Source: Microcoleus sp. FACHB-831 (lineage in GTDB: Bacteria > Cyanobacteriota > Cyanobacteriia > Cyanobacteriales > FACHB-T130). From it: a stretch of 64,000 nucleotides of DNA. The stretch is from NCBI RefSeq assembly GCF_014695585.1, contig NZ_JACJON010000075.1:62001-126000 (forward strand), written 5' to 3'. Under the pieces are notes generated by a model that saw only the letters and a program-made list of their open reading frames with translations, had not been told where the DNA came from and did no database searches. Position numbers and translations under genes: made by a program. Below, one piece after another: positions 1,144-63,016 of this stretch; the first letter of the stretch is position 1; every line of letters begins with the position of its first letter.

Positions 1144-3507
1144 ATGGCAAACCAGCAAGCCAATTGTGGTGCGATCCAAAACCTCTCCCCAGAGTGGATG
1201 TATGACGGCGCTCTGGCAGCAACATGCTGCGGAGTTGTCATCGCCGATGCAAGCCAGCGGGGATATCCGATTATCTATTGCAATCCGGCTTTCGAGACGA
1301 TAACTGGCTATTCACAAAATGAGGTTATAGGGCGCAGTTGCCGATTTTTACAGGGCGCAGACACCGATAAAAATGCTTTGGAAAAGCTGCGTCAGGCGCT
1401 GGGTGAAAAGCGAGAATGTCAGGTAGTTATAAAGAATTACCGGAAAAATGGGGCTGTTTTCTGGAATGAGTTAACAATTTCTCCGCTGCGCGACACAACT
1501 GGTACGGTGACGCACTTTATCGGAGTCCAGAAGGATATCACCGAGCAGAAGGAGGCTCAAGAAGCACTGCGAGAAAGCGAGACGCGGCTGAGGCTGGCAC
1601 TAAACGCGGCGAATATGGGCGTTTGGGACTGGGATGTGCAAACTGGCAAGCTAAATTGGTCTGAGGAAGTCGAATCGCTCTTTGGTCTGGCGGCGGGTTC
1701 GTTTGAGGGCACATATGAGGCTTATCTCCAGCGCATTCCTTCTTCAGATTGCTACCGCGTGACTCAGGAAATAGTCTCTGTCATGCAGGCAAAAAACGAT
1801 TATCGTTTAGAACATCCTATTTTGCGTCCCGATGGGACGATTCGGTGGGTGCAAAGCAGGGGTGCGGTTTTGCGAGACGAAACCGGGAAAGCGATCAGGA
1901 TGACCGGGACAGTCATGGACATTACCGATCGCAAAGCGGCTGAGGAGGAGTTGCGACAGCAAGCGGAAAGAGAGCAGTTGACGGGAGCGATCGCCCAACG
2001 CATCCGCCAATCTCTTAACTTGGATGAAGTCCTCAACACTGCTGTGGCAGAAGTACGGGAATTTCTCAAGACTGACCGCGTAGTGCTTTATCGGTTTTAC
2101 CCCGACGGAAACGGGGTTGTGATCGTAGAATCGGCTGGCGATGGTGTGACGCCAATTCTGGGAAGTAATATAAAAGACCCCTGCTTTGGGGAAAAATACG
2201 TGCTTCCGTACCAACAAGGTAGAATTCGAGCGATTGAAGATATCTATAATGCAGGTATCAAGCAGTGCCACATCGATTTACTAGAGCGGTTTGGGGTAAA
2301 AGCAAACTTGGTAGTGCCAGTTCTGCAAGGACAAGACTTGTGGGGACTGTTGATTGCCCATGACTGCTCGAATCCAAGGAAATGGGAGCAATCGGAAGTA
2401 AAATTGCTGCAACAGTTGAGCGTGCAACTGGCGATCGCAATTCAACAATCCAGCCTAGTCGAACAACTTAGAACTGAACTCAAAGAACGCTTAATAGCAG
2501 AAAGGCACTTGCGCGAGTCAGAAAATTGCTTGAGGCAAAAAGCTACTGAACTAGAACAAGCACTATCCGAGCTGCGACAGACCCAAGCACAGCTAATCCA
2601 GATCGAAAAAATGTCCAGCCTGGGGCAGTTGGTTGCTGGTGTTGCCCACGAAATTAATAACCCAGTTTCCTTTATATATGGCAATCTGGAGTATGCCAAT
2701 CAGTATGTCCAAGATCTCCTCCAGCTATTGCAAGTCTATCGTGTCGCCTATCCCCAACCAGCGCCATCTGTTGTAGACGAAGCTGAAAAGATTGATTTAG
2801 ACTTCCTAATTCAAGATTTCCCCAAACTACTGACTTCTATGAAAATGGGAGCAGACCGCATCCGCGATCTAGTGCTGTCGTTGCGTAACTTCTCCCGCCA
2901 CGATCAAGCTGAGAAGAAGCCAGTTGATATTCATCAAGGCATTGATAACACTCTGTTGATTTTGCAACACCGATTGAAGGCAGAAGGAGAAAATCCCGCC
3001 ATTCAAATTGTTAAAGAATACGGTGATTTACCTCCAGTAGAGTGCTACCCTGGCCAACTTAACCAAGTATTTATGAATATCCTCAGCAATGCTATTGATG
3101 CTTTGGATGAGCCAAAAAACCAAGGAGGCGCACAGAAATACGCAATTCACAATCAAAAATCTAAAATCCCAAATCGGCAAATTAGGATTTGCACCGAACT
3201 TCAAGACCAAAATCGAGTGATAATTCGGATTGCAGACAATGGCTCCGGCATTCCGGAAACTGTCAAGGAAAGAATATTTGACCCTTTCTTTACAACTAAA
3301 CCTGTAGGAGAAGGTACGGGGCTGGGCTTGTCTATTAGTTACCAGGTTGTTGTCGATCGTCACGGCGGTCAGCTCAAGTGTTTATCAACACCGGGACAGG
3401 GTACAGAGTTTATTGTGGAAATTCCTCTAAAGCAAACGGCTGCTGTTGCGCCAATAGCCGCTTACTGTCGCCTACCCCTACAAGATAAGGCTCCGTGTGT
3501 GGCCTAG
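1144..3507 (+). CDS. LOV-PAS-GAF (bilin-type) sensor histidine kinase
   Basis: A 787-residue soluble histidine kinase with no receiver domain. Residues 20-142 form a LOV-type PAS domain: GRSCRFLQ carries the flavin-adduct cysteine (Cys66), followed by NYRKNG, FWNELTISP and FIGVQ, all typical flavin-contacting motifs. A PAS_3 domain follows (about 150-262). Residues 280-445 are a GAF domain of cyanobacteriochrome type, with DPCF (Cys347) and QCHIDLL (Cys375), the paired cysteines of the DXCF class, 28 residues apart. A coiled coil leads to the H-box GVAHEINNP (His502) and an ATPase domain with DNGSGIP and GTGLGLSI. The input is therefore probably blue light through flavin plus a bilin. A short insertion in the ATPase domain is encoded by a heptamer-like repeat. 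The partner regulator is unknown. Confidence 0.9.
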   Translation: MANQQANCGAIQNLSPEWMYDGALAATCCGVVIADASQRGYPIIYCNPAFETITGYSQNEVIGRSCRFLQGADTDKNALEKLRQALGEKRECQVVIKNYRKNGAVFWNELTISPLRDTTGTVTHFIGVQKDITEQKEAQEALRESETRLRLALNAANMGVWDWDVQTGKLNWSEEVESLFGLAAGSFEGTYEAYLQRIPSSDCYRVTQEIVSVMQAKNDYRLEHPILRPDGTIRWVQSRGAVLRDETGKAIRMTGTVMDITDRKAAEEELRQQAEREQLTGAIAQRIRQSLNLDEVLNTAVAEVREFLKTDRVVLYRFYPDGNGVVIVESAGDGVTPILGSNIKDPCFGEKYVLPYQQGRIRAIEDIYNAGIKQCHIDLLERFGVKANLVVPVLQGQDLWGLLIAHDCSNPRKWEQSEVKLLQQLSVQLAIAIQQSSLVEQLRTELKERLIAERHLRESENCLRQKATELEQALSELRQTQAQLIQIEKMSSLGQLVAGVAHEINNPVSFIYGNLEYANQYVQDLLQLLQVYRVAYPQPAPSVVDEAEKIDLDFLIQDFPKLLTSMKMGADRIRDLVLSLRNFSRHDQAEKKPVDIHQGIDNTLLILQHRLKAEGENPAIQIVKEYGDLPPVECYPGQLNQVFMNILSNAIDALDEPKNQGGAQKYAIHNQKSKIPNRQIRICTELQDQNRVIIRIADNGSGIPETVKERIFDPFFTTKPVGEGTGLGLSISYQVVVDRHGGQLKCLSTPGQGTEFIVEIPLKQTAAVAPIAAYCRLPLQDKAPCVA

Positions 3508-3804: not shown

Positions 3805-4443
3805 TTACATAGCAAAAGGTTTGACAGCAAAATCGCCCAAAGTTACCGTGAAACTTTGCCGCTGCCCAGCCGCAGCAAAGTTAACGATGACTTCCGAGGC
3901 TACAGCAACACTCAGCATGACTAAATTGCGTGCTAGCGGGTAGTCGCAGACATCATCATTTGCTGGGGAGGGGACGCGATAGATTTCGTTCCAGATGATT
4001 TCGGCATAATCGCCACCTAGTCCAACGTGGAGACACGGGAGATTAGCATTAGCGCAGTAATCTTTAACTGCGCCACGCGCTACGCTGTTGTCGAAGGTAT
4101 CGATTACTAAGGCGCTACCTTCTAACATTTGGGCGGCGTTTGCAGGTGTAAGTTCTTTGGGACGCGCATCGAGGGAGACTCCCAAGGCGCGATAGAGGGT
4201 ATTGGTGAGGATTTTGGCTTTATAAGCGCCAACATCGGAACGATAGTAAGGTTGGGTGGAGAGGTTGCGTTCTTCGATGCGATCGCGGTCGATAACTCTC
4301 AGTTTGCCAAAGCCAGAACGTGCAAGATTTTCAGTAATATTAGCGCCTAAAGCTCCAGCACCGCAGACAGTTACGGGGAAATTTTTTAATTTCTCCATAA
4401 TTGTTGGTGTTCTTTGCAGTTGTTCGTGGAAGAAGATAGACAT
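3805..4443 (-). CDS. ThiF/E1-like adenylyltransferase family protein
   Basis: A 212-residue Rossmann-fold protein of the ThiF/MoeB/E1 superfamily, which adenylates the C-terminus of ubiquitin-like or sulfur-carrier proteins. Visible motifs are the nucleotide loop GAGALG (28-33), the acidic strand end VIDRDRIEERNL (about 50-61, with the ATP-binding D and the R-N pair), a conserved lysine around 75-77, and VIDTFDN (113-119). The zinc-binding CxxC pairs of MoeB/ThiF are absent, and it is shorter than those enzymes, so it is a minimal E1-like domain. It is the last gene of the minus-strand RNA-repair-like cluster, 68 bases after the 315-residue gene. No ubiquitin-like partner is evident nearby. 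No strong Shine-Dalgarno is visible; the ATG at 4443 fits the family N-terminus. Confidence 0.75.
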   Translation of the reverse strand: MSIFFHEQLQRTPTIMEKLKNFPVTVCGAGALGANITENLARSGFGKLRVIDRDRIEERNLSTQPYYRSDVGAYKAKILTNTLYRALGVSLDARPKELTPANAAQMLEGSALVIDTFDNSVARGAVKDYCANANLPCLHVGLGGDYAEIIWNEIYRVPSPANDDVCDYPLARNLVMLSVAVASEVIVNFAAAGQRQSFTVTLGDFAVKPFAM

Positions 4444-4483
4444 TTTAGGAATTGGGAATGCGAATTGGGAATTTTAGATTCAA

Positions 4484-4518
4484 TCCAAAATCCAAAATCT
4501 AAAATCTAAAATCAAAAG
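4484..4518. repeat. Heptamer short tandem repeat (TCYAAAA)n
   Basis: Four tandem heptamers (TCCAAAA twice, TCTAAAA twice) are followed by TCAAAAG. The fifth copy supplies the stop codon (4512-4514) of the minus-strand 315-residue gene. This is a cyanobacterial heptad short tandem repeat, seen again at 16133-16153 and in degenerate form inside two coding regions. Confidence 0.75.
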
Positions 4519-5459
4519 TCCCAGTAGCCTCGCGCTTCGATAACGCCGACGAGAGATTGCAAGTCAAAATCGCGATCGCGTCCGCTTAGACAGATGCCAG
4601 AACTAATGACTGTAAGATGTTTTTTGTCAATAGCAGATGTGTGACGTTCGCCTCTAGTGGTAGTCCATTCAATTTGCCAAAAGTCACCGCGATCGCGGAA
4701 TTCTTCTAGTTCGCCGCCACCCATTTGCAGCGCATTCCGCAAACGTTTTTCATCGCTGTTTTGTATCTTGAGATATTGAGCGCGATCGCGCCGTTCTTTT
4801 TGCTTGAGTTTTTGATTTTCCCGTAACTGTTTTTTGCGTTCTTGCTGCTGTTGCTGGCGTTGTATTCGAGCTTGATATACTGCCGTTTGTTGCAATGCCA
4901 AATCGTAGACTGTACGCATCTCTGGTGTCATTCCAGCAAAGCGCAATGTTTCTAATGGCGTTAGCTGGCGGAGATGTTCTCTGAGTTGTTGAGCTACTAT
5001 TGGATCGGCGCGGCGATCGAGTTCGTCAAACCACCAAGCACGACCATCAAAACGCGCGATCGCAGGCTCAAAAGGATCGCCTTCAGTTACCAAATATACC
5101 GGAAATGGTTTGGCGATACCGATGCGCTGCTGCATATCGGATTCGTTGACAGGGTAAGCGAGCCACGTTTGTCCTTCCAAAACATAGGCGAGCCGCAGGC
5201 GCACAGGCTTTAGCAGGCGCAGGTATTCTGCAACTTGGGGTAAGTTTGCCTCCTCCACGAGTTCTGCTGTTTTGGAGTTTTCCGGCTGGAAAATACCCCA
5301 GCCTTCAAAGTCTTGCGGTTTGGGGGTGAAGGTATAAACCATGCCCGCGACGGATGCCCGTACAGATCCGCCCCGCACGCAAGGAGCAAAAAATTGAGTA
5401 TTGCCTAGCTGGGATTCCTGGGCGGCAATTTGGTTGAGGAGATTGCGGATATCTGCCAC
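4512..5459 (-). CDS. Conserved hypothetical protein of the RNA-repair-like cluster
   Basis: I do not recognise a family for this 315-residue protein. It starts at GTG 5459, only 9 bases after the AAA+ gene, so the two are probably translated together. Residues 1-150 look like a compact mixed fold rich in aromatic and proline residues (GWGIFQP, YPVNESDM, FDGRAWWFDEL). Residues 200-235 form a very charged, glutamine-rich coiled coil (QARIQRQQQQQERKKQ onward), as expected for an extended or RNA-contacting segment. The C-terminus (FWQIEWTTTRGERHTSAI, then SSGICLSGRDRDFDLQSLV) looks like a small beta domain. Its fixed place between an AAA+ ATPase and an E1-like protein suggests an adaptor for one of them; this is inference only. 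Confidence 0.7.
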   Translation of the reverse strand: MADIRNLLNQIAAQESQLGNTQFFAPCVRGGSVRASVAGMVYTFTPKPQDFEGWGIFQPENSKTAELVEEANLPQVAEYLRLLKPVRLRLAYVLEGQTWLAYPVNESDMQQRIGIAKPFPVYLVTEGDPFEPAIARFDGRAWWFDELDRRADPIVAQQLREHLRQLTPLETLRFAGMTPEMRTVYDLALQQTAVYQARIQRQQQQQERKKQLRENQKLKQKERRDRAQYLKIQNSDEKRLRNALQMGGGELEEFRDRGDFWQIEWTTTRGERHTSAIDKKHLTVISSGICLSGRDRDFDLQSLVGVIEARGYWDF

Positions 5460-5468
5460 GATATTGCC

Positions 5469-6716
5469 CTAATTGTTTGATTCTGAGGAGTTGGGCGGTA
5501 ATAAGTCTGTAGTGGTACTGAGCATCTGCGATCGCAGGCTGGCAACTTGTTCAAGCATGAATTTCTCCATCGTACCCGCTTCCATTGCGTTCATCCAGCG
5601 AATTGTAGAGGAGACAAATAGCTCTTTCAGGTAAGCGAAAGAGAAGCCATCGGTTAATTCAGCAATCTGAGTTACAACCTCTCCAGACAAACGCATTGCT
5701 GGCTTTAAGCTATCGTTCCAAAATGTTATATAAGCCAAGCGTTCTGTCAAAGCTGGTAACTCGAAATGATACTTGCGATCGAAGCGGCTAGGTCTGTTAA
5801 GAATCGCCGGATCTAAACGTTCTGGATGGTTAGTTGTAGCCAGAGTTAAGATACCTTCGTTTGCAGCAAAACCATCAAGTTCATTGAGGAAGAAAGAACG
5901 ATTTTCTCCAGTTACCAGAGAATCTATATCTTCCAAAACTAGAATGCATGGCGCGGACTGGCGAGCGCGATCGAATACTTCGCGGATATTTGCGTTATCA
6001 ATAGCAGAGGAAGACTTGACGCTTTTGACATACAAGCAGTTTTGCTGCATTTTATTGATTAGCGCTTTAACCGCGTGGGTTTTGCCATTTCCAGGAGAAC
6101 CGATAAACATAATTCCGCGCTTCCAAGGTACGTCATAAGCTTTATAAGTCTCGCGGGAAGCAAAGAAGTTTGCTACATCATCTTGGATATCTTGTTTGAG
6201 GCGATCGCGCAGAACAAGGTTATCAAAAGTTGCACTTTTGATTGCCTTAGATAGTTCTTCACTTTTCTGCCAGTAACCATTTTCAAATACTAGAATCTCA
6301 TCATCTTCAATCTGACAGTACCACTCGCATACAGCAGCAAAAAATGATTCTGCAATTTCTTTAGTATCTGCGAGTATCCAGTAATATCGAGTAGTAGAGC
6401 AACCTTCTGGCCAAGTCATTAAGATTACCTCAAGCTTATTTCCTTGCCAAGCCACACGGAAATAGGCGTGTTCTGCATTAGCAGTTATTGATTTTTTCCA
6501 CGAGTTCCAGCTAGTTGAAATCTGGTTGTGGATATACGATTGAGGTTCAAGCGTACAAAAATTTTCTGCTGCATAGCCTTGGACATTGAACGACCACTCA
6601 CTACCTTCGATAATGGCTTTATCGGGATAAAGGGCGCTCAATCCTTGGCTGACATTGTAGGAAATAGCAGCCATAGGAAGCGAGAGCGATTTTGAAATTA
6701 ACTTGTTTATCTTCAT
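5469..6716 (-). CDS. AAA+ ATPase (first of two in the cluster)
   Basis: A 415-residue protein. The N-terminal about 160 residues are an unrecognised domain. Residues 165-375 are a classical AAA module: Walker A GSPGNGKT (206-213), Walker B LVLEDID (about 259-265), sensor-1 TTN (around 294-296), and the arginine-finger segment RPSRFDR (308-314). The arrangement resembles proteasomal/BCS1-like AAA proteins, which form ring-shaped unfoldases or remodelers driven by ATP. No membrane segment or protease domain is present. It lies directly upstream of the 315-residue gene (9-base gap) and 193 bases after the Nudix gene. The substrate is unknown; the context suggests remodeling of RNA-protein complexes. 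Confidence 0.85.
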   Translation of the reverse strand: MKINKLISKSLSLPMAAISYNVSQGLSALYPDKAIIEGSEWSFNVQGYAAENFCTLEPQSYIHNQISTSWNSWKKSITANAEHAYFRVAWQGNKLEVILMTWPEGCSTTRYYWILADTKEIAESFFAAVCEWYCQIEDDEILVFENGYWQKSEELSKAIKSATFDNLVLRDRLKQDIQDDVANFFASRETYKAYDVPWKRGIMFIGSPGNGKTHAVKALINKMQQNCLYVKSVKSSSAIDNANIREVFDRARQSAPCILVLEDIDSLVTGENRSFFLNELDGFAANEGILTLATTNHPERLDPAILNRPSRFDRKYHFELPALTERLAYITFWNDSLKPAMRLSGEVVTQIAELTDGFSFAYLKELFVSSTIRWMNAMEAGTMEKFMLEQVASLRSQMLSTTTDLLPPNSSESNN

Positions 6717-6815
6717 TAGATTTGTTCGGCAATTTTTTTACTAAAACTAGGAGCAATTTGCCTCAATTCCCCTTTAATAAATGCGTTTTGTGCAAGTTCA
6801 ATACTTCTCATATAA

Positions 6816-6838
6816 CCCCTCTCCTTGCAGGAGAGGGG
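6816..6838. repeat. Dispersed hairpin element (CCCCTCTCC/GGAGAGGGG)
   Basis: A perfect 9-bp inverted repeat, CCCCTCTCC and GGAGAGGGG around TTGCA, is followed by CAGGGGGTGAGG. This type of element is common in cyanobacterial intergenic DNA. It sits in the 193-base gap between the Nudix and AAA+ genes, so in the cluster transcript it would form a hairpin that could separate or stabilise the two halves. Confidence 0.6.
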
Positions 6839-6909
6839 CAGGGGGTGAGGTTGGTGGGAAGCTTGCGTAAATTTTGTCTACAAAACATTTGGGATAGATT
6901 CCTGATATC

Positions 6910-7350
6910 TCACCTAAAAATTCTGGACTCATCTTCCTTAAAATACTTATCTAACTCTGCAAGCAAAGGATTGATAGTCTTTTTTTGAATCGCATGTGGT
7001 GGCTTCCATTCCATCCATATAAAACTATCGTGTTCGCTGACTTGTATATTTACATCCTCTTTCAACCATCCCAAAAATATCACCACAGTCTTGTTAACTA
7101 TTTGATTCCCAAAGCGCGGGGACTGGGTTTGATAATTAGTAGTAAAACGAAATGTATTATCCAAGTCTAAATTGCTAGCTTGAATACCAGTTTCCTCATA
7201 TAGTTCGCGTAAAGCGCAACTCCACTCATCCTCGCCAAATTCCATGTGACCTTTTGGCAAGTCGTAGCGGTGGGGATGCTGCATCAATAGAAAGCTCAAT
7301 TGCGGCTTATTTCGCATCACTATTACACCGCAAGACTTTTTCTCTAGCAT
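6910..7350 (-). CDS. Nudix hydrolase
   Basis: A 146-residue Nudix-fold pyrophosphatase. The Nudix box GHMEFGEDEWSCALRELYEE continuing into TGI matches GX5EX7REUXEEXGU completely, including the metal-binding glutamates. The upstream YDLPKGHMEFGE context is like Ap4A/dNTP-type Nudix enzymes (PKG next to the box). It lies 14 bases after kptA in the same direction. In an RNA-repair context such an enzyme could remove adenylyl or ADP-ribose by-products: KptA makes ADP-ribose 1'',2''-cyclic phosphate, and the ligase makes adenylylated ends. That link is inference from position. Confidence 0.88.
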   Translation of the reverse strand: MLEKKSCGVIVMRNKPQLSFLLMQHPHRYDLPKGHMEFGEDEWSCALRELYEETGIQASNLDLDNTFRFTTNYQTQSPRFGNQIVNKTVVIFLGWLKEDVNIQVSEHDSFIWMEWKPPHAIQKKTINPLLAELDKYFKEDESRIFR

Positions 7351-7364
7351 AGCTATATATGAAA

Positions 7365-7913
7365 TTAGAGTTGATGTAAATACTCAGGGGGAACGTTATC
7401 CACTAGCCATACACCATTTTCAGAACAGTAAAACGTGTATCCGGCTTTGTGCATTGCAGCGGCATCTACAGCAAAAACAATGGGACGACCGTGCCTAGCG
7501 CCGACAGCTTTTGCTGTTGCTATGTCGGCTGATAGATGGACGTGGTGACGCGACATTTTGCACAAACCCTTGCTAAGAATTGCATCGACTGCTTTATGAC
7601 CCGTACCGTGATAAAGCACATCTAGGGGGACAGCAGGAGCTAATTGTAAATCTACTTCTACGCTGTGTCCTTGATTGGCGCGAATTAGACCTCCTGTTTC
7701 GTCGAATGAAAAGCGTTTTTTGTCGTTATTTGCGACAATTTCATTCAACTCGGCACGGTCGATAGGGAAGCGATCCTTTTTACAGGCGGCTAATAGTTCA
7801 TCTACAGAAATCCAGCCGCCTTCGCCAAGTTCTAGACCAATTTTATCGGGACGATGCCGAAGCACGTAGCTGAGATATTTGCTGATTTTAACTAGCCGAA
7901 ACTCGTTCATCAT
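7365..7913 (-). CDS. kptA: RNA 2'-phosphotransferase, Tpt1/KptA family
   Basis: A 182-residue full-length Tpt1/KptA enzyme. The family removes an internal 2'-phosphate from RNA using NAD+, releasing nicotinamide and ADP-ribose cyclic phosphate. The N-terminal half is a winged helix with the catalytic LRH pair (Arg19-His20), LELGEGGWISVDELL and KKRFSF (Arg67). The C-terminal ADP-ribosyl-transferase-like half shows LYHGTGHKAVDAIL, SRHHVHLSAD and GRPIVF. Its ATG overlaps the stop of the upstream AAA+ gene by four bases (7910-7913), which implies translational coupling. Because 2'-phosphates are made by particular ligases or arise from RNA damage, its place beside an RNA ligase supports a repair role. 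Confidence 0.93.
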   Translation of the reverse strand: MMNEFRLVKISKYLSYVLRHRPDKIGLELGEGGWISVDELLAACKKDRFPIDRAELNEIVANNDKKRFSFDETGGLIRANQGHSVEVDLQLAPAVPLDVLYHGTGHKAVDAILSKGLCKMSRHHVHLSADIATAKAVGARHGRPIVFAVDAAAMHKAGYTFYCSENGVWLVDNVPPEYLHQL

Positions 7914-9079
7914 ACAAATCGGTGAATAAATTCATAGGTAAAATCAACTCTACCCTTGCGTAACATAGCTGGATCTAGTCTTTCAGTAGTGTTGCAAGTC
8001 ATCAATACAACAAGTTTCTGCTCTGCTTGAATACCAGCTTCGTCAATTACGCTTTGATACAGAGTTCCATCTAGCAAACTCAAAATATGCTCAGTTTTGC
8101 TATTATTCTGGGCTGCTTCCGAGGCGCGGTCTTTAGCTAAGTTATCAGCTTCGTTGATAATGATACAAATTTTCTCCAAATAGGTTGGTGGTACAAAGTT
8201 CTCAACTGCATCGTGATCGAGGATAAAAATTACATACCCTAGAGGTGCAAGAATTTCTTTAGCTACTGCTTGCGTCCAGACTGTTTTCCCCGTACCAGGC
8301 TTACCGTATACAAGAACAGCTAATTTATTACTGTTAATAATCTCCTGCTGTACGTTGTCAGTAAAGCTTTGAATGTCTGCGGGAAATGTGCGAATTGGGT
8401 ACTGGCTGTTAACTTTTCCTACGCGGCTTTGATACCCGCTAAGCATCACTGCTAGATTGTAAGTTGCCTTGTTAACAAGTTGCCCTAATTCTTTCGCGGT
8501 GAGCGTATAACGTCGCTGTCTCTTACCACAATTGACGATATGCAGCCAGATGTCATGCTTCGACCAATATGCTAAAACTGTGCCTGCTATTTCGATGCGG
8601 TTCCAGTCAACAAATTTATGTACGGGGTAATAAAAATGACGCTCTTCGTAAGCTTGGGTAATGAGATCGGGACGTCCTAATAATTCAACGACTTTGAGGA
8701 CTGCGATCTCTTGTAGCCGCTTAAGAACGTGTTCGATGGGAATGGTGTCGCGGCTGACTGATTGGTTGAGAGGTGTTTCGGTACTGAGATTCTCGTCATA
8801 GCGATCGTCGGGTGCTGGGGGTGCGGGGGTAATATAGTTCCAATATTCATCAACTCTGTCCCGCGTGTTTTCATAGAAAACATTCAATATATTTGCCCAC
8901 CAAGCATAGTCGTTGCGCCCTAAAGCATCAGCAATATAACTGGCTAAGTCTACAGTTTTGTGAGTTATCTCTAGAGGTTCGTTAGACGCAAGCTGCCACA
9001 GATAGCCCCAATCAACTTCTCGGTATAATGGTTGCCAACCAGCTCCAAGTAATTCTTGCGTTTTGCTTTTTTTGTACAT
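7910..9079 (-). CDS. AAA+ ATPase (second of two in the cluster), coupled to kptA
   Basis: A 389-residue protein. The first about 245 residues are an unrecognised alpha/beta region rich in tryptophan, containing RRYTLTAKELGQLV. Residues 250-389 are a P-loop ATPase: Walker A GKPGTGKT (259-266), Walker B IIINEAD (about 306-312, with glutamate but asparagine in place of the usual aspartate before it), sensor-1 TCNTTERLDPA, and an end at RKGRVDF. It stops soon after the region where an arginine finger and lid would lie, so the lid domain is short or absent. It overlaps kptA by four bases. It is different enough from the AAA+ at 5469-6716 that the two are probably separate components rather than a recent duplication. 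Confidence 0.82.
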   Translation of the reverse strand: MYKKSKTQELLGAGWQPLYREVDWGYLWQLASNEPLEITHKTVDLASYIADALGRNDYAWWANILNVFYENTRDRVDEYWNYITPAPPAPDDRYDENLSTETPLNQSVSRDTIPIEHVLKRLQEIAVLKVVELLGRPDLITQAYEERHFYYPVHKFVDWNRIEIAGTVLAYWSKHDIWLHIVNCGKRQRRYTLTAKELGQLVNKATYNLAVMLSGYQSRVGKVNSQYPIRTFPADIQSFTDNVQQEIINSNKLAVLVYGKPGTGKTVWTQAVAKEILAPLGYVIFILDHDAVENFVPPTYLEKICIIINEADNLAKDRASEAAQNNSKTEHILSLLDGTLYQSVIDEAGIQAEQKLVVLMTCNTTERLDPAMLRKGRVDFTYEFIHRFV

Positions 9080-60208: not shown

Positions 60209-63016
60209 TCACTTGCAGACAAAACTAGCGATGGTTGTTAGCAAAATACCTGGATCGACGGGCTTAGACAGGTGAATTTGGAAACCTGCGGCGATCGCTC
60301 TGTCTTGTTCCTCAAGTCGAGTGTAAGCTGTCAGCGCGATCGCCTGAATCTGAGAATTTTTATTTTGTTTTGCCTCCATTGCTCTCAGCTTGCGAATCAG
60401 GCTGTAGCCATTTTCTCCAGGCATCCCAATATCGCTCACCAAGACATCAAAATTATCTTGTGTCAAAGCTTGTAGCGCCTCTTGCGCGGAGGAAGCGACA
60501 ACTGCGATCGCGCCGCACTGTTTGAGAGCAATTCTAATAAACTCCCTCACGTCAGCTTCGTCATCTACCACAAGTACCCGCAAGCTATCTAAATAGGAAT
60601 TGGGCAATAAACAAGCAGTTGGTGAAAGTTGAGCGCTCGTTTCTAACTCAAAACTTGTATCTGTATCATTTTCATCTCCCCTTGCCCATTGATTGGTAGC
60701 AACCGACAAAGGTAAAAGGGGCATTTGGACGGTAAATGTCGCCCCTTGATTTTCCCCGGGACTTTCCACACCAACAGTCCCGCCGTGCAGTTCGACTAAA
60801 TTCCGCACAATCGCTAATCCCAAGCCGAGTTTACCTTGCAGCTTGGTCATGCTGCTGTCAGCTTGACGAAAACGTTCAAAGATCGATGGCAACATCTCAG
60901 GATTTATTCCTATTCCCGTGTCGCTTACCCGCAGAGTCGCATGGTGATCGCTTTGTTCCAATCTGACTTCAACACGTCCCCCGCTTGGGGTAAATTTGAT
61001 GGCGTTGTCTATCAGATTCCAGACAATTTGTTGCAAGCGTACCGCATCCCCCAATACCCATAGCGGTGGAGAAGATGATTGAGAATTGAATTGTGCCCTA
61101 GCTTCTGTGTATTTCTGCTCCTCAATTTGGGGAAATACCACATCAAGTGCGATCGCTTTATACGAAGCCTGCTCCGCCACAATTTTTAGTGCTGCCTCAA
61201 CAACAGATATCAGATTGACTTGATTTACATTAAGCCGAAGCGTGCCCCTGATCGTGCGCGAGATATCCGCAAGATCGTCAAGGCGTTGAGCCTGCACGCG
61301 GGCGTTGCGCTCGATTATTTCCAGGGCGCGAACAGTGATGCCTTCGTCAAAATTGCGAGTAGAAAGCAGCCTAGACCACCCCAGAATAGAGCTGAGGGGC
61401 GATCGCAGTTCGTGGGAAACTATGGCTAAAAACTCGTCTTTGGCGCGGCTAGCCTCTTCTGCCGCCCTCCTTGCTGCTTGCTCGTCAGCCAATAACCGCT
61501 GATATTCTTCCTCCGTCCACTTGCGCTCATCTATCTCGCGCTGAATGGATATCCAGTGAGTGTACCAGCCTTTTTCATTGGCGACGGGCGTAATGCTCAG
61601 TTCCACCCAAAATTGCGTGCCATTTTTGCGGTAGTTCATCAGATCGACTTCTACTGGTTCCCAGCGTTCTAGCGCCGTGCGAAGTTTATCTAGTTTGGCG
61701 CGGTCTGTTTTTGGCCCTTGCAGCAAGCGCGGGCTTTTCCCAAGTACCTCCTCAGCGCTGTAGCCTGTCATCCGGGAGAACGCTTCGTTGACGTACAATA
61801 TTCTCGGCCCAGGATAGTTAATCGGCTCTGCTTCGGTGATTAGTATGGCGTCGTTGGCGTTGACGACCACTGACTCAAGCAGCCGCAACCGTTCTTCACT
61901 TTGTTTGTGGTCTGTGATGTCGGCGATTAACGCCATAATGCCGCAGATATTGCCTTCGCTGTCATGTACTGGCGCTGTCCACAACCGGATCTCATAGGTA
62001 TCTGGGCTGGGGGAAACCTCAGATTGAGTATTTTTATTAGGAATTGAAGTTAAATCGGCACTTGCCACAATTCCGCCTTGCAGCGTAGTTGCGAACATTG
62101 TCCAGAATTCTTGCTGTTGATTTTCGGGAACGATTGCCAGAGGGCGATCTAGCACCTCTTGCGGACTCCAACCGAACATTCGTTCCGCTGCCTGACTCCA
62201 CGCCTTGACATTTCCGTTATTATCTAGGCTGATAGTAGCCATCGATCGGGCTTCAATTAGCGTCTCCAGCGCCTGATTTTTTTGTTGCAATTCCTCCAAG
62301 GCTTGCAAGTTTTGGGTGAATTCAGCCAGCAGTTGTTCCTCGCGGCTATAACTTTCCTCCCTCACGCGATCGCTATAGTTGCGGAAGAAGTCAGCTAAAC
62401 GCGGTTCTTCTACAAACAACATACCAATGCGATCGTAAGCTGGCTTGTCAAGTTGATAGGCAAGTTGTGGGTGTGCTTCTACCCAAAGATGACAGGTTTT
62501 TATATAACCCAAGAACGCCATCAAGTTGTTGTAATTCTCAGATCCCAGCATCCGTTTTAGCTGTGAGCCAACAGTAGCAGCGATCGCGCCTCCACCAACA
62601 ATGTTGGGGTGCAAAAACATGAAAATAGCACATGAAAATATAGCTTTTTCCCCTTCCCAATCTGCTTCTAGCCAGATTTCCTCTGAAAGCGACGGCACAG
62701 CATTCAATTCTTCTTCAATGTTCTTTGCTGTTGGCGTCGGCGTTTCCAGAAGTTCCAATATTGCTTTTGATTGCATCCCCAAGCTGCGAGCTTCACAACT
62801 GTGGCAAATGATGCAGTATGCGACGCTACAATAACGTGAAAGGTACGCAAAAAGCTTTTCTTTGAACAATACTGGAAGCGGATTGTTGACATAGCAGATC
62901 TGCATCTGCTGCCACAGGTTTTCCAGCACTAAAGGCGTATCACTTGCAGCAATCAAAAAGGCTGGTATAAAGCCCAACTCGGACTCGATTTCTAAACTTT
63001 TTTGTCTACTAATCAC
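60209..63016 (-). CDS. Hybrid histidine kinase: AhpD-like domain, two PAS domains, kinase, receiver
   Basis: A 935-residue protein. Residues 10-210 resemble the AhpD/carboxymuconolactone fold with the redox motif Y-C-I-I-C-H-S-C (Cys68, Cys71, Cys74; FKEKLFAYLSRYCSVAYCIIC then HSCEARSLG). A PAS domain at about 255-370 and a second at 380-500 follow; the second is LOV-like, but its cysteine position is proline (GKSPRLLQG), so no flavin adduct can form. The kinase has SHELRSPLSS and DTGIGI. A receiver ends the protein with VVDDE, DIGMP and SKPVD. The N-terminal domain suggests sensing of peroxide or thiol state. Confidence 0.85.
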   Translation of the reverse strand: MISRQKSLEIESELGFIPAFLIAASDTPLVLENLWQQMQICYVNNPLPVLFKEKLFAYLSRYCSVAYCIICHSCEARSLGMQSKAILELLETPTPTAKNIEEELNAVPSLSEEIWLEADWEGEKAIFSCAIFMFLHPNIVGGGAIAATVGSQLKRMLGSENYNNLMAFLGYIKTCHLWVEAHPQLAYQLDKPAYDRIGMLFVEEPRLADFFRNYSDRVREESYSREEQLLAEFTQNLQALEELQQKNQALETLIEARSMATISLDNNGNVKAWSQAAERMFGWSPQEVLDRPLAIVPENQQQEFWTMFATTLQGGIVASADLTSIPNKNTQSEVSPSPDTYEIRLWTAPVHDSEGNICGIMALIADITDHKQSEERLRLLESVVVNANDAILITEAEPINYPGPRILYVNEAFSRMTGYSAEEVLGKSPRLLQGPKTDRAKLDKLRTALERWEPVEVDLMNYRKNGTQFWVELSITPVANEKGWYTHWISIQREIDERKWTEEEYQRLLADEQAARRAAEEASRAKDEFLAIVSHELRSPLSSILGWSRLLSTRNFDEGITVRALEIIERNARVQAQRLDDLADISRTIRGTLRLNVNQVNLISVVEAALKIVAEQASYKAIALDVVFPQIEEQKYTEARAQFNSQSSSPPLWVLGDAVRLQQIVWNLIDNAIKFTPSGGRVEVRLEQSDHHATLRVSDTGIGINPEMLPSIFERFRQADSSMTKLQGKLGLGLAIVRNLVELHGGTVGVESPGENQGATFTVQMPLLPLSVATNQWARGDENDTDTSFELETSAQLSPTACLLPNSYLDSLRVLVVDDEADVREFIRIALKQCGAIAVVASSAQEALQALTQDNFDVLVSDIGMPGENGYSLIRKLRAMEAKQNKNSQIQAIALTAYTRLEEQDRAIAAGFQIHLSKPVDPGILLTTIASFVCK

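Follow-up and report, generated by a model that had tools for sequence, protein, structure and literature searches.

A cyanobacterial LOV-PAS-GAF histidine kinase with predicted flavin and bilin chromophore sites in one chain

Domain architecture and gene context

We analysed a window of 64,000 nucleotides from Microcoleus sp. FACHB-831 (contig NZ_JACJON010000075.1, forward-strand positions 62,001 to 126,000), within which a single open reading frame encodes a predicted multidomain sensor kinase. Its features, in window coordinates, are as follows.

1144..3507, + strand: sensor histidine kinase, LOV-PAS-GAF-HisKA-HATPase, 787 aa (open reading frame with ATG start; same architecture in 7 orthologues)
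1210..1548, + strand: LOV domain, aa 23-135, predicted flavin-binding blue-light sensor (PAS_9, 1.5e-31; LOV structures, to 6.6e-36)
1339..1341, + strand: Cys66, predicted flavin-adduct cysteine in GRSCRFLQ (aligned with the Cys of GRNCRFLQ in LOV structures)
1567..1938, + strand: second PAS domain, aa 142-265 (PAS_3 in two stretches, the best at 170-257)
1957..2469, + strand: predicted DXCF-type cyanobacteriochrome GAF domain, aa 272-442 (phmmer, GAF tree, model on 4glq)
2182..2184, + strand: Cys347, predicted second (C10-linking) cysteine of D-P-C-F, equivalent to TePixJ Cys494 (alignment, orthologues, model)
2266..2268, + strand: Cys375, predicted canonical bilin-attachment cysteine (Cys-His), equivalent to TePixJ Cys522 (alignment, orthologues, model)
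2620..3432, + strand: histidine kinase core, HisKA with H502 and HATPase_c at aa 638-763 (Pfam)

Pfam matches within the 787-aa kinase comprise PAS_9 (30-134), PAS_3 (170-257), GAF (292-433) and HATPase_c (638-763; 9.6e-25), and HisKA at 493-518 scores 21.8 bits, under its cut-off of 26.9. By sequence and model, the kinase core carries an H-box, an N-box and G-boxes, with the phospho-acceptor H502 (codon 2647-2649) lying in the H-box HEINNP. The PAS domain between LOV and GAF had been absent from the first-pass annotation. No chromophore motif was seen in it (aa 142-265), and we interpret it as spacing the two sensors apart or relaying signals between them.

Seven full-length orthologues (loci L037-L043; families f1, f21 and f26) share 62-64% identity with the kinase. 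A contig search with its sensor part gave no orthologue, the matches being mostly LOV/PAS proteins unrelated to it, and a plasmid search returned nothing beyond matches below 60% identity.

An adjacent cognate response regulator is common for two-component kinases, although not required. Within the window, no response regulator adjoins the kinase gene. Among the orthologous loci, an OmpR-type regulator sits next to the kinase gene, in convergent orientation, only in L037 and L038; its best NCBIfam match is RpaB, below that family's cut-off. We rejected this regulator as a general partner. Six loci, the window's among them, have purC and a bamA-like gene near the kinase (some 6-9 kb upstream in the window's case). 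A different set of six, without the window's, has lpxC-fabZ-lpxA-lpxB nearby; all of these names were given from the sequence by eye, with no family search. The orthologous neighbourhoods have no signalling-related gene in common, and they suggest no pathway. Convergent to the kinase, on the minus strand at 3808-9079 of the window, lie genes for a ThiF/E1-like protein, a 315-aa protein of unknown type, an AAA protein, a NUDIX protein, a Tpt1/KptA RNA 2'-phosphotransferase and a further AAA protein. L039 and L040 also have Tpt1 close to their orthologous kinases, together with a 402-aa protein and an open reading frame that looks NADAR-like by eye.

The two predicted chromophore sites

Using phmmer, we matched the kinase GAF domain to the cyanobacteriochromes PPHK (6oap; 2.2e-53) and TePixJ (3vv4; 2.5e-33). 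Over its central 73 residues the alignment with TePixJ is ungapped and sets 'IKDPCF...KQCH' on 'IEDPCF...TECH'. We then compared structures using an AlphaFold2 model of aa 15-445 built from 21 aligned relatives (model residue = window residue - 14). The model has a mean pLDDT of 83.8 and a pTM of 0.45, so that individual domains are confident while their relative placing is not predicted. VIA-align superposed it on TePixJ (4glq), pairing 275-423 with 436-584 across 149/149 residues ungapped (Z 24.0, rmsd 2.1). The structural equivalences are C347 with 494, C375 with 522, D345 with 492 and H376 with 523. Thus, the second-cysteine motif D345-P-C347-F348 falls at the TePixJ 494 position and the canonical C375-H376 at 522/523. 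Cys347 and Cys375 had been singled out as 28 residues apart, like TePixJ 494 and 522, and the ungapped sequence and structural alignments agree on this point. Aligning the GAF domain with cyanobacteriochromes, a check proposed by the first-pass annotation, placed Cys347 inside the DXCF loop. We ruled out a chance origin of the spacing because of the homology to TePixJ, borne out by structural equivalence, and the conservation of both cysteines in relatives.

That conservation extends across the predicted chromophore and catalytic sites. C66, N98, N108, Q129, D345, C347, F348, C375, H376 and H502 are invariant in all seven orthologues. Six f14 LOV-PAS-GAF-HK proteins of about 790 aa (L110-L115) likewise keep all three cysteines, with N108 or Q129 replaced in two of them. 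The window's genome encodes one haem oxygenase and one ferredoxin-dependent bilin reductase scoring as PcyA (373.5 bits; cut-off 206), so phycocyanobilin should be available and its supply is plausible.

Certain other relatives appear to have lost one site or the other, indicating that the fold alone is no guarantee of use. The second GAF cysteine is missing in L093 (EPVF) and L116 (DNFF), and L120, a 770-aa LOV-PAS-GAF-HK protein, has neither GAF cysteine and an intact LOV domain (GKSCRFLQ). Conversely, L032 pairs an intact DXCF GAF domain with a LOV-like motif, GRNS, in which Ser replaces the adduct cysteine. We infer that all four represent chromophore-site losses. L120, L093 and L116 lend some weight to a reading in which LOV would be the sole working photosensor and the GAF domain would keep its fold and cysteines as a structural relay, or bind something else. 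However, every direct orthologue retains the GAF cysteine pair together with the Asp, Phe and His, and the genes for phycocyanobilin synthesis are present, and we consider this reading improbable.

A second question is which cyanobacteriochrome line the GAF domain belongs to. DXCF domains are defined by the second cysteine and XRG domains by the Trp of WXDXXL (PMC11284453). The residue at the XRG Trp position, two before the Asp, is Ile343, as in TePixJ. In a GAF tree of 67 rows, the kinase GAF falls in a starred set of 19 (97/91); every member has a cysteine at the DXCF position, and 16 share their chain with a LOV domain. A separate group (89/89, unstarred) holds PPHK, NpR3784 (miRFP670nano) and the red/green (XRG) references. 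TePixJ sits on a long, unsure branch, and the tree therefore reads as 'DXCF-like, not XRG/NpR3784' rather than as 'sister of TePixJ'. With PPHK as the best PDB match, we weighed XRG and NpR3784 assignments and rejected them on the presence of Cys347, on Ile343 in place of the XRG Trp and on a tree position apart from these references. It could still be argued that this is a red/green-line domain of the NpR3784/PPHK kind with a fortuitous cysteine, given that PPHK has DQYF and no second Cys and that XRG-line domains that regained the DXCF cysteine are known (PMC11284453). The placement in the starred DXCF clade, away from PPHK, NpR3784 and XRG, and the fixation of the cysteine in orthologues argue against it, leaving it slightly less credible than the LOV-only reading and a DXCF assignment preferred, with blue/green colours expected from the family.

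The LOV domain finds its best PDB match in the Meiothermus ruber LOV domain (6.6e-36), and the residues predicted to contact FMN (N98, N108 and Q129) are unchanged. Cys66 of GRSCRFLQ, previously named as the flavin-adduct residue, aligns with the Cys of GRNCRFLQ at the adduct position and is kept in orthologues. The residue before it is S65 in place of the usual Asn (GRSC); each of the seven orthologues retains the Asn (GRNC). GKSC (L120) and GRDC (f55-family proteins) are found in other LOV domains that keep the cysteine, which suggests that this position tolerates change. The least probable alternative, that the GAF domain is the sole light sensor and LOV a flavin redox or constitutive domain with a photocycle impaired by S65, draws on the unusual serine and on L032, but is countered by the retention of C66, N98, N108 and Q129 and by the recurrence of GKSC and GRDC in LOV domains with the cysteine.

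Taken together, these comparisons of sequences and models make it very probable that the gene encodes a soluble cyanobacterial sensor histidine kinase that reads light via two chromophores, a flavin and a bilin, in one chain.

Distribution of LOV domains paired with DXCF GAF domains

We surveyed about 714 genomes, drawn from three overlapping samples, for single chains combining the two sensors, counting only those with a Cys-containing LOV motif and a GAF domain with both cysteines and the DXCF Asp. At least 27 genomes, spanning 7 family codes, encode such a chain; this is a lower bound and not a frequency, because the thresholds were not uniform and inspection was confined to the best loci. 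The genomes counted are those of the orthologue group (G000, G001, G003, G004, G005, G025, G030 and G051); G036, G008 and G018, via L021, L030 and L031; G573, G533, G514, G577, G559 and G550, via L110-L115; and ten f55 genomes, via L083, L085-L088, L090, L091 and L095-L097. A second example occurs in the genome from which the window comes: a 2021-aa protein (L046:987-7049, minus strand) that has HisKA, HATPase and a pair of receiver domains in addition to numerous PAS domains and two GAF stretches. The first-pass annotation had proposed a dual flavin and bilin sensor of a rare kind. The LOV and DXCF GAF assignments passed every sequence and model test run, which favours dual sensing, but 'rare' is only partly right: the architecture is a minority one, yet it recurs across these families and occurs twice in this genome.

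The chains differ in the number of PAS domains and in output, and range in overall length from about 790 to 2021 aa. By comparison, the LOV-PAS-GAF stretch is near-constant in length in 21 proteins (440 alignment columns), and the LOV-GAF distance is longer in L021, L030 and L031. The GAF tree requires 5 changes of the LOV label, at least 3 of them forced by starred branches, making repeated pairing or loss, in either direction, likely. The LOV tree is compatible with a single origin.

Two further observations concern these genomes. Genome G000 encodes a very large number of PAS/GAF proteins and related kinases, with 166 matches to the kinase at E <= 1e-10. A protein of the window's genome, L053, has two LOV-like PAS domains, one with GKTPRILQ (Pro) and one with a degenerate GQSCWYER.

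Proposed mechanism and comparison with known systems

Extrapolating from the two families, we propose the following sequence of events. Under blue light, LOV would form a flavin-C4a-Cys66 adduct, which would decay thermally once darkness returns. The GAF domain in its dark state would hold a bilin (phycocyanobilin, perhaps isomerised to phycoviolobilin) through Cys375 and, by a reversible bond at C10, through Cys347, so that the bilin would absorb violet/blue light; blue light would convert this bilin to a form absorbing green, teal or orange, and a longer wavelength would reverse the change. Both changes may pass along a helical linker running from LOV Jalpha through PAS and GAF to the DHp, setting H502 autophosphorylation and phosphotransfer to a response regulator encoded elsewhere. 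Blue would drive both sensors, yet a longer wavelength would reset only the bilin sensor; the kinase would thereby act as a reporter of blue gated by blue:green history. The output could be of either sign, and the logic could be OR, AND or gating. Kinases with LOV or cyanobacteriochrome sensors have been proposed to signal along a helical spine. The engineered LOV/heme kinase YHF, in which coiled-coil linkers can integrate two signals (PMC6798134), sets a precedent for the principle.

More tentatively, the kinase may represent a conserved flavin-plus-bilin family in which a LOV-PAS-DXCF-GAF cassette of near-fixed length is passed between outputs, losing one chromophore site at a time, and in which a blue signal is gated by colour history; this possibility, which we hold with less than even confidence, would amount to a two-chromophore logic device not yet described. 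If both sensors work, such proteins offer compact natural models for how a kinase integrates two photoreceptors on one helical spine, with L032, L093, L116 and L120 as ready-made single-loss controls, and parts for blue/green-gated optogenetic kinases.

LOV sensors and cyanobacteriochromes are each well known, as are multi-sensor photoreceptors. Our survey shows their pairing to be recurrent, and it is predictable from its parts. We found no characterised LOV plus cyanobacteriochrome receptor in the open literature, which is weak negative evidence as most subscription papers lie outside its scope. The relevant passage of one review groups neochromes, Ppr and tandem cyanobacteriochrome arrays together as single-chain multi-photosensors, and no LOV plus cyanobacteriochrome combination is named there (PMC9614035). 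Neochrome, a phytochrome-phototropin chimera of plants and algae (PMC4525182), and the dualchrome of a green alga (PMC11879098) similarly combine two chromophore systems, one of them a bilin, in a single chain. They differ from the kinase in being eukaryotic, in using a phytochrome module rather than a lone cyanobacteriochrome GAF, and in having a phototropin or cryptochrome partner rather than a LOV-histidine kinase. SL2 of Synechococcus elongatus (LOV-GGDEF-EAL) is also a cyanobacterial LOV photoreceptor, but it is a c-di-GMP enzyme and lacks a cyanobacteriochrome domain (PMC8846402).

Parallels also exist for each half of the protein. Structures of the Brucella abortus LOV-HK (6ph4, 6pps; LOV-PAS-HK) were the top Foldseek matches of our model, and that protein likewise runs from LOV through PAS to a histidine kinase, but without a bilin-binding GAF domain. 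For the GAF domain, TePixJ (3vv4/4glq/4fof) shares the ungapped DPCF and Cys-His, the Ile two before the Asp and the same fold. It differs in being a chemotaxis-type protein, to our knowledge with no LOV domain, and at 38% identity the kinase GAF sits in another DXCF branch. The closest solved GAF domain, at 44-48% identity, is that of PPHK from Leptolyngbya sp. JSC-1 (6oap), whose solved state is green-absorbing at 562 nm (PMC11480761). Like the kinase described here, PPHK is a multidomain sensory histidine kinase from a cyanobacterium and includes a cyanobacteriochrome GAF; it is described as dual-sensor. Its GAF domain, in contrast, has DQYF and no second cysteine, and the solved construct contains no flavin LOV sensor.
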